A stretch of DNA of 64,000 nucleotides, taken from Brachyspira pilosicoli. GTDB lineage: Bacteria; Spirochaetota; Brachyspiria; Brachyspirales; Brachyspiraceae. The notes under the pieces were generated by a model. It was not told where the DNA came from, did no database searches, and saw nothing but the letters and a program-made list of their open reading frames with translations. This document shows, piece after piece, positions 5,576 through 8,811 of this stretch. The DNA is taken from the NCBI RefSeq assembly GCF_008016535.1, contig NZ_SAXY01000045.1:1-64000 (forward strand). Reading direction: 5' to 3'. The position numbers and the translations under genes were made by a program. Positions within the stretch are counted from its first letter, which is position 1. Every line of letters begins with the position of its first letter.

Positions 5576-5896
5576 ATGTTTGATAATAACGTTCATTATA
5601 TAAGAAAAGAATTAGAATCTATATACAATGTTGTAGTAGAGAATTTGGGCAAAGAGTTATTAAGCAAAGAGATAAAAAAACTTGAATACGAGCCAAAATT
5701 AGACAGAATTAATATAAATGATTTTATTTTTATAAGACTTACATTTGAAAATAAAGAAGACCATAAAGAATTATTTTATGAGATATATATAGAAGATGAA
5801 AACGGCAATGCCTTAGAAAACTCAATGATAAATGTAGAGCGTCCTTTCTCTAATCTTGTAGATAAAATTGATTATCTTATAAAACTAGATTATTAA
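5576..5896 (+). CDS. Small acidic protein of unknown function
   Basis: A 106-residue, charged, apparently soluble protein without signal peptide or membrane segment. The ribosome site is very strong (TAGGGGGG, 5 nt or so before the ATG). It starts 15 bp after the foldase gene, so the two are probably cotranscribed. Predicted alternation of helix (residues 5-35) and strands (FIFIRLTFEN, LFYEIYIEDENGN) suggests a small alpha/beta fold. No family is recognised. The 339-bp gap after it (5897-6235) holds AT-rich DNA with one hairpin (6038-6060) and nothing coding that I can support. Confidence 0.65.
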   Translation: MFDNNVHYIRKELESIYNVVVENLGKELLSKEIKKLEYEPKLDRININDFIFIRLTFENKEDHKELFYEIYIEDENGNALENSMINVERPFSNLVDKIDYLIKLDY

Positions 5897-6235: not shown

Positions 6236-8773
6236 TTATTGCTCAAAGAAATTATTCATATCTTTAAAAATTTCTTTTATGCTTGCTCTTAATATGCTTG
6301 CATTCGGAAGTGAGTTTATAAATTGCATGCCGTAATTTTTGGTATATAGTCTTTTATCTAATACAAATACTATGCCTCTGTCTTCTTTGCTTCTTATAAG
6401 CCTTCCAAAACCTTGTTTAAACTTTATAACAGCAAAAGGCAGAGCATAATCCAAAAATGCATTTCCTCCATTTTCTTCAATATATTTGTACCTTCCTTCA
6501 CTTATTGGGTCTGTAGGAACGGCAAATGGAAGTTTTGGTATAATTACAGCTTCAAGATTCTTTCCTGCAACATCAACACCCTCCCAAAAAGAATCCACTC
6601 CAAATAAAACATTATTTTCTGATGCCTTAAACATATCAAGTAAAGTATGCCTATGTATTGAAGAAGTTTGTGCGAGGGCATTAATATTTTTTTCTTTTAG
6701 CTTTTCAACAGTAGTTTCATAAACTTTCATTAAAGAAGAGAATGCCGTAAAAAGTATAAATGCACGCCCACCTGTAATGTCGCATACATTAAGAAGAACT
6801 TTTGATGTATAATCATTAAAACTATCACTTGCTGGGTCTGGTGAATCGGTTGATATATAGAGCCTTGCATTGTTTCTATAATTAAAAGGAGACTCTAAAT
6901 ATATTTCTATCTTTTTGTTTTTTTCTATATAGTCAAAGCCAAGTCTATTAGAAAAGAAATTAAAACTCTTTGAAACTGTGAGTGTGGCAGAATACATAGC
7001 AACAGTATCAAACCTTAAATATAAATAATCATTTAAGTTTTTAGCTACTGTAACAGGAGTAAGATGCCAATTAAGTATAAGATTGCCTTTTTTAGTCATT
7101 CTTGCTTCAACCCATCTTATATATTCATCTTTTTTATAATCTATTGCGGCATTGAGTGAGATTAATTGTCTTTTAAGTCTTTCAAGATAGGCATTACTCA
7201 TCTGTGCTATCTCTTCATAATCGAACCCTTTATCTATTGCTATATCAAAGAATTTTTTATAAAGTTTATCGCATGCATTAACTAACGAAGTAATAACTAA
7301 AACCATCTCTCTTAAAGGTTTAATTCCTTCTTCTTTCCATTTATTATTAATTATTATTTCTGGGCATATTCTAAATTTAAATCCTAAGCCTTCTTTTGTT
7401 TGTATATTTTTGTGGCAGTAGTTTAAAAATTGTTTTGAAGATTCATCTACCACATTTCTTACTCTTGAAGTTGTTTCATGTACACTATTAATTAGCTCTA
7501 ATAATTCTCTATAATCATCTATTTCTATAGAAGATTTATTTTGATTAACCATATTATTAATAGTTTCTATTACACCAAGCCTTTTATTTTTCTTTATTCT
7601 TGATATATAAAAAAGTGCCTTTAATATTCCGTTTTTACTTCCCTCATCTCCAAAATAACTAGAAGCCGAATTTTCAAAATTATGAGCCTCATCAATTATA
7701 ACTTTTGTATATTTTGGGAGTAGGCTATATCTGCCTGAAGTTTCTGCATGTAAAGACAAATCTGCACATAGTATATGATGATTAACTATTAATAATTGTG
7801 CTGCATTAAGCTGTTTACGCATTTTATAAAAATAACAATCTTCTAAATATTCGCATTTTCTATGAGTGCAAGTGTCAGTATCACAGGCAACCATTTCCCA
7901 TAATTCAGATTTTGGTTTGTAGCCTAAATCTGTAATAGAGCCGTCTTTTGTAATATTAAGCCAATTGTCAATATCTGCAAAAAACTCAATTTGGTCTTCA
8001 AAATCTAATTTATCAGTATCATTCAAAGTATCTTTTACTTTTTTAATGCATACATAATTATTACGCCCCTTTACTAAAGCATATTTAACATTTGGAGCTA
8101 TGGCATCTATTATAGATGGTAAATCTTTATTTATAATTTGTTCCTGCAGATTTATTGTATTTGTTGAAACTACTATTCTTGTTTTATTTTCTTTAAGCCA
8201 TAATAAAGCAGGTATTAAATATGCAAATGATTTACCTATTCCAGTGCCTGCTTCGGATATTAAATGTTTATTTGTATTAAAGGCTTCTATTGTAGCTTCT
8301 ACAAGTTCTGTTTGCTCTTGTCTGTATTCATACTTTTTTAATATTTTGCTTAAAAGCCCATTTTCGGTGAACATAAATAATGCATCAGGAGCATCTATAT
8401 TTTTTACATTTTCTTTTCTAATTGGTCTTACAACTTCATAAAAATCATCAACATCATTATTAACTATATAAAAACCAACTCCAGCATTATTGCCCAATTC
8501 GCTTGCTATAGCTAAATCTGCCCTTGAAGGAGTAAGCTGACCTGATGGATGATTATGTATTACAGCATCAAACTCTAATGAAAGCGATATTATAGCAGGT
8601 ACAGAATCTTTATTTCCCCTTGCCATTACTTCTATATAATCTAATATGCCGAAAGAATTAAAATTGATTCCAAAATATACTTCATTGCCGTAGGAATCAA
8701 CTATAGATTTCCTCATAAAATTTATTGCTTCTAAAGAAAAGACATTATTTATTTCAACATCATATTCACTCAT
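6236..8773 (-). CDS. dinG: DinG-family Fe-S helicase with N-terminal RadC-type JAMM domain
   Basis: An 845-residue fusion protein. Residues 1 to about 120 form a RadC/MPN-like domain: HNHPSG at 73-78, then PS at 82-83 and D at 86 complete the JAMM metal motif, with E31 a candidate for the upstream glutamate. Residues from about 148 are an XPD/DinG superfamily 2 helicase: YRQEQTEL, Walker A EAGTGIGKS (174-182), Fe-S cysteines (YVC, then CTHRKCEYLEDC with C-x4-C-x5-C spacing), IIDEAHNFE, SATLTVSKSF, FWEGVDVAGK and QGFGRLIRS. Known role of DinG: 5'-3' unwinding of D-loops, R-loops and G4 DNA. What the metalloprotease-like or RadC-like domain adds is unknown. The gene is monocistronic and divergent from the M19 dipeptidase. 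No Shine-Dalgarno precedes the ATG. Confidence 0.9.
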   Translation of the reverse strand: MSEYDVEINNVFSLEAINFMRKSIVDSYGNEVYFGINFNSFGILDYIEVMARGNKDSVPAIISLSLEFDAVIHNHPSGQLTPSRADLAIASELGNNAGVGFYIVNNDVDDFYEVVRPIRKENVKNIDAPDALFMFTENGLLSKILKKYEYRQEQTELVEATIEAFNTNKHLISEAGTGIGKSFAYLIPALLWLKENKTRIVVSTNTINLQEQIINKDLPSIIDAIAPNVKYALVKGRNNYVCIKKVKDTLNDTDKLDFEDQIEFFADIDNWLNITKDGSITDLGYKPKSELWEMVACDTDTCTHRKCEYLEDCYFYKMRKQLNAAQLLIVNHHILCADLSLHAETSGRYSLLPKYTKVIIDEAHNFENSASSYFGDEGSKNGILKALFYISRIKKNKRLGVIETINNMVNQNKSSIEIDDYRELLELINSVHETTSRVRNVVDESSKQFLNYCHKNIQTKEGLGFKFRICPEIIINNKWKEEGIKPLREMVLVITSLVNACDKLYKKFFDIAIDKGFDYEEIAQMSNAYLERLKRQLISLNAAIDYKKDEYIRWVEARMTKKGNLILNWHLTPVTVAKNLNDYLYLRFDTVAMYSATLTVSKSFNFFSNRLGFDYIEKNKKIEIYLESPFNYRNNARLYISTDSPDPASDSFNDYTSKVLLNVCDITGGRAFILFTAFSSLMKVYETTVEKLKEKNINALAQTSSIHRHTLLDMFKASENNVLFGVDSFWEGVDVAGKNLEAVIIPKLPFAVPTDPISEGRYKYIEENGGNAFLDYALPFAVIKFKQGFGRLIRSKEDRGIVFVLDKRLYTKNYGMQFINSLPNASILRASIKEIFKDMNNFFEQ

Positions 8774-8782
8774 TATTGAATG

Positions 8783-8811
8783 ATAGTATATTATATTAAA
8801 ATCTTTGTCAA
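8783..8811 (-). promoter_or_regulatory. Possible sigma-70 promoter for the JAMM-DinG gene
   Basis: On the minus strand TTGACA (8811-8806) and TACTAT (8788-8783) are separated by 17 bp. The predicted start point would be within a few bases of the ATG at 8773, which also lacks a Shine-Dalgarno, so the message could be nearly leaderless. Alternatively the match is fortuitous. Confidence 0.45.

Follow-up and report, generated by a model that had tools for sequence, protein, structure and literature searches.

The window, that is, the whole stretch of 64,000 nucleotides of Brachyspira pilosicoli DNA that was analysed, contains a gene for a protein in which an N-terminal JAMM domain is joined through a short linker to a DinG/YoaA-type Fe-S helicase. 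The coordinates of the gene and its features are collected in Table 1. Within the window the gene stands alone, flanked by genes on the opposite strand; a 106-aa ORF adjoining it (5576-5896) gave no match in NCBIfam. The promoter-like sequence listed in Table 1 stops roughly 9 bases short of the ATG, so that the mRNA would be nearly leaderless. A TTGACA-like block is also found upstream of the gene elsewhere in the genus, and promoter-like matches were not enriched over shuffles in the AT-rich region around the gene.

Table 1. Position, strand and supporting evidence of the RadC-like DinG gene and its features in the window
Feature	Coordinates	Strand	Evidence
RadC-like DinG gene, 845 aa	6236..8773	-	ORF translation; orthologues found in all genomes of the genus that were searched
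N-terminal JAMM (RadC-like) domain, residues 1-125	8399..8773	-	Pfam, profile, AlphaFold, Foldseek
E31, predicted catalytic glutamate	8681..8683	-	157/157 relatives
H73-N74-H75-P76, predicted zinc ligands HxH	8546..8557	-	157/157; unbiased only in the set found without the HNHP pattern
S83..D86, predicted oxyanion serine and third zinc ligand	8516..8527	-	157/157
Linker, residues 126-139	8357..8398	-	Confidently modelled
DinG/YoaA-type Fe-S helicase, residues 140-845	6239..8356	-	Pfam, NCBIfam, 6fwr and SaDinG matches
Walker A GTGIGKS, residues 176-182	8228..8248	-	Conserved
Fe-S cysteine C242	8048..8050	-	103/104 aligned
Fe-S cysteines C302, C307, C313	7835..7870	-	98/104, 102/104, 102/104 aligned
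DEAH box, residues 361-364	7682..7693	-	Conserved
Promoter-like TTGACA-17-TACTAT	8783..8811	-	Consensus match only; no excess over shuffles

The reading frame was shared by all same-genus genomes searched, with splits or truncations limited to a few fragmented assemblies, and the same fused frame recurred with about 51% identity in genomes of the same order. Since it is present across whole genera and phyla, an assembly artefact or a fusion of frames was ruled out, and the joining of both parts in one polypeptide is confirmed as a real, conserved, broadly distributed and known architecture. With one match in the genome, the protein is apparently the sole DinG/YoaA-type helicase of Brachyspira.

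The helicase half matched DinG 6fwr with an E-value of 1e-38 and was superposed on the SaDinG structure with a Z score of 36.0 and an rmsd of 4.5 over 651 residues. The best NCBIfam match was YoaA, at 543 bits under the equivalog cut-off of 680, and a YoaA-like C-terminal helix in MD2 (832-844) is present in the model. Walker A, the four Fe-S cysteines and the DEAH box are all conserved, in agreement with the first-pass annotation, which had described this half as a complete DinG helicase. The model for Csf4, the DinG of Type IV CRISPR systems (TIGR03117), reached 121 bits against a cut-off of 400. Like the protein of the window, E. coli YoaA and DinG are Fe-S XPD-like helicases, but both are stand-alone proteins. 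The S. aureus DinG (ExoDinG; 9ii8/8zef) does carry an enzyme domain N-terminal to its helicase, although a DnaQ-type exonuclease instead of a predicted JAMM hydrolase domain; Pfam gave no match to such an exonuclease at the N-terminus studied here.

At that end, the Pfam family RadC (PF04002) matched weakly, over residues 71-94 only (residues 1-127 scored 26.2 bits; cut-off 22.1), whereas a profile of 65 relatives recovered RadC (2qlc, E 5e-8) and aligned the HNHPSG..PS..D columns in register. The isolated domain was modelled by AlphaFold with a mean pLDDT of 92.6, and in the model the JAMM fold spans residues 8 to 125 approximately, beginning within the first ten or so. Foldseek ranked RadC best, followed by Rpn11 and AMSH. 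Superpositions with VIA-align 2 gave near-equal values for BubCD (Z 10.8, rmsd 3.2, 111 aligned), Rpn11 (Z 10.0, rmsd 3.0, 105 aligned), PfJAMM1 (Z 9.9, rmsd 3.0, 101 aligned) and RadC (Z 8.3, rmsd 3.7, 103 aligned), and therefore cannot by themselves rank the JAMM families. The JAMM/MPN+ motif E-Xn-HxH-X7-S-XX-D, described together with its zinc site in PMC300881, is present with N as x, as in RadC, and E31, H73, H75, S83 and D86 all lie where the first-pass annotation had placed them. The JAMM isopeptidases Rpn11, AMSH, PfJAMM1 and BubCD share these catalytic residues and the fold (Z about 9-10.8, rmsd about 3, about 105 aligned), but they have H(S/T)H in place of HNH, their identity is 11-18%, and no ubiquitin-like partner is known for the fused protein.

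The label "RadC-type" given to the domain earlier held in part: RadC is indeed the nearest sequence family and has the same fold and HNHPSG..PS..D signature, yet several of its hallmarks are missing. In an alignment of fused domains and 17 RadC proteins of spirochaetes, the spacing from E to HxH was 42 in the fused domain (58/65) versus 50 in RadC (17/17), an 8-residue deletion removing the HPRE loop of RadC and with it the PR of HPRE. N106 replaces the invariant H of the RadC DH, which becomes (D/N)N, and the invariant S that follows the JAMM motif in RadC (Y/F-S) is V or A; a conserved G is common to both, within RGN in the fused domain and within GT in RadC. Pfam found no helix-hairpin-helix (HhH) domain at the N-terminus of the fused protein, and in a tree built on few columns the fused domains and RadC formed separate clades with 100% SH-aLRT. 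Judged by these sequence characters, the fused domain is a dedicated JAMM subfamily, sister to RadC yet distinct from it, for which "RadC-like" is the right name and "RadC" is not. It could be argued from the profile match and from RadC being a top fold match that this is a plain RadC joined to DinG and doing the same job as the stand-alone protein. We consider this very improbable, given the separate clade, the altered spacing, the loss of PR, DH and S, and an ordinary RadC gene already carried by the genome. One ordinary RadC per genome was also seen in most Brachyspira, versus about 25 RadC-family matches in 2.5 Mb and many contigs of one genome of the same family (G027). On a Desulfuromonadaceae contig (L137), an ordinary RadC gene (241 aa, ORF at about 5339, forward strand) lies a few kb from the gene for RadC-like DinG.

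The fusion was found in all genomes of the same genus, family and order. A scan with the domain profile, counted by hand, detected the fused domain in 74 of 150 Spirochaetota genomes at 71-174 bits, and each of these 74 strong matches fell in a long fused frame or in one interrupted by a split or truncated at a contig end; below them, stand-alone RadC genes appeared at 41 bits or less, a clean split. The samples from elsewhere were drawn around fusion-carrying genomes and bear the phylum label of the centre locus: in them, the fusion was present in 52/60 genomes for Hydrogenedentota and 41/59 for Calditrichota/KSB1, and around single genomes of Dadabacteria, Auribacterota and Desulfuromonadales in 25/41, 16/29 and 9/79, respectively. 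Genome contigs were also scanned with the JAMM part by itself; in all 80 loci obtained the domain was joined to helicase sequence, the frame being split in one (L097) and truncated at a contig end in a few. In phage and viral collections no match to the fusion was found, and PADLOC gave merely generic DinG/Csf4 and other helicase matches, so a defence or phage origin was rejected. The plasmid collection did not contain the fusion, only one short RadC match. Apparent extra N-terminal domains in four loci (L035, L069, L087 and L098) were discarded, their composition pointing to open-frame noise at high GC. A JAMM-like HNHP..S..D motif was seen deep within a non-DinG frame of 815 aa (L174, G098:C50).

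It had been implied that such a fusion is unusual. This proved wrong, since the architecture is widespread and has already been named RadC-like DinG (PMC11981726; PMC5512222). Fusions of RadC to DinG/RAD3 helicases were noted earlier by Iyer and Aravind, who predicted a role in nucleic-acid processing (PMC5512222). The name, and a model with Zn of the Desulfuromonas soudanensis protein, come from section 3.8 of a review (Cheng 2025; PMC11981726), in which experimental work on RadC-like DinG is reported as nonexistent and whose main text does not mention spirochaetes. The protein of the window has the N-terminal RadC-like JAMM domain with conserved E, H, H and D, followed by MD1, Fe-S, Arch, MD2 and the C-terminal helix, and its ATP-binding motifs and Fe-S CCCC motif are conserved. 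Its architecture is thus identical to that of the subgroup, within which the spirochaete sequences form deep branches of their own.

E31, G53, H73, N74, H75, P76, S83 and D86 were invariant in 157/157 fused proteins, about 25 of which are close Brachyspira relatives. For 80 loci the conservation of H73-P76 is biased, because the pattern that retrieved them included HNHP; this bias spares E31, S83 and D86 as well as the Spirochaetota proteins found with the whole protein, and a representative set of 24 of the latter, free of it, showed the same invariance. Mean identity to the protein of the window was 47.5% in the JAMM part and 50.2% and 48.4% in the motor parts, with helicase residues 401-560 drifting to 27.6%. 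The JAMM domain is therefore constrained as strongly as the motor domains. Insertions between HNHP and S..D were observed in L041, L044 and L173, with the catalytic residues retained.

In the helicase tree, proteins lacking the domain nest among JAMM-bearing ones at supported forks: L047 pairs with L034, L050 with L040, L051 with L045 and L053 with L035, and L048/L049 lie inside a JAMM clade. L047 retains a stump corresponding to the last JAMM strand and L048/L049 retain the linker; therefore, at least these are domain losses. The tree and these remnants indicate several losses of the complete domain from an otherwise intact helicase, and none of the JAMM domains examined had a decayed active site. 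From this nesting, the domain is dispensable for the helicase. Such persistence of the helicase alone would be expected if the domain were a non-catalytic zinc-binding scaffold or a protein-interaction module that places the helicase, and some MPN domains, e.g. Rpn8 and EMC8, are non-catalytic. However, MPN domains that serve as scaffolds have usually lost the motif, whereas every one of the 157 fused proteins, across phyla, retains E, H, H, S and D, and the losses take the whole domain. A domain that is dispensable yet intact wherever it is retained favours catalysis over scaffolding, and we regard the scaffold as quite unlikely; the zinc site may also be purely regulatory. The invariant active site, the exclusive loss of whole domains and the matches to the fold of JAMM enzymes all argue for an active JAMM domain, and the most likely reading of sequence and model is that of a ssDNA repair helicase equipped with an active Zn hydrolase as accessory. 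The coupling of a helicase to a metal-dependent hydrolase, suggested by the first-pass annotation, is well supported by the invariant residues, the JAMM fold and the intact helicase.

In Calditrichota/KSB1, a metallo-beta-lactamase exonuclease gene on the same strand immediately precedes the fusion gene in 19 of 27 distinct loci, usually with a gap of about 130 bases or less, which points to DNA repair. This exonuclease is TIGR04122-related (187 bits, under the cut-off of 325). The gene immediately upstream in 22 distinct spirochaete loci is one for a purine nucleoside phosphorylase, with gaps of -56 to 184, which we treat as genomic context. Four spirochaete loci (L166, L167, L168 and L171) have an FtsK-like gene 12-15 bases upstream.

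The exonuclease linkage might also indicate that the JAMM domain acts on nucleic acid itself, our second choice of substrate. Iyer and co-workers had suggested a nuclease function for RadC on the strength of HhH and DinG fusions at nuclease positions (PMC5512222), and the proposal was repeated for the RadC clade (PMC3482391). The fused domain does occupy the same N-terminal place as the exonuclease of SaDinG, but a neighbouring nuclease gene could render a second nuclease unnecessary, and the argument from RadC transfers poorly because the HPRE loop, DH and the serine are missing. As, moreover, we know of no JAMM enzyme that cuts nucleic acid, we hold this substrate to be possible but rather doubtful.

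The gene is thus probably a chromosomal housekeeping gene whose product is a DinG/YoaA-type (XPD-like, Fe-S) helicase for DNA repair with an active JAMM metalloenzyme at its N-terminus. In the mechanism we propose, the JAMM domain would bind Zn and function as a hydrolase placed before the first motor domain, the helicase would move 5'-3' on ssDNA by analogy with E. coli DinG, and the JAMM domain would act on a substrate that is bound or linked to the strand under unwinding. Our first choice of substrate, with somewhat less than an even chance, is a protein on DNA that would be cut at a peptide or isopeptide bond, to our knowledge the sole chemistry of JAMM enzymes. Action on DNA-protein crosslinks at D- or R-loops, raised in the first-pass annotation, is possible but speculative. 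The domain could even represent a third JAMM type beside RadC and the ubiquitin isopeptidases, namely a helicase-borne protease stripping proteins from ssDNA; this we deem unlikely, but, if true, it would be a one-polypeptide bacterial counterpart of the repair of DNA-protein crosslinks by a helicase plus SPRTN or the proteasome.

New in this analysis are the invariance in 157/157 proteins, the repeated loss of the whole domain, the clade apart from RadC, the exonuclease linkage in Calditrichota/KSB1 and the finding of no fusion in the phage, viral and plasmid collections. RadC-type JAMM enzymes have been without an agreed function for decades. In the genomes searched, this subfamily was always attached to a well-understood DNA helicase and its active site is invariant, and it therefore offers a direct route to ask whether RadC-type domains cut protein or nucleic acid.
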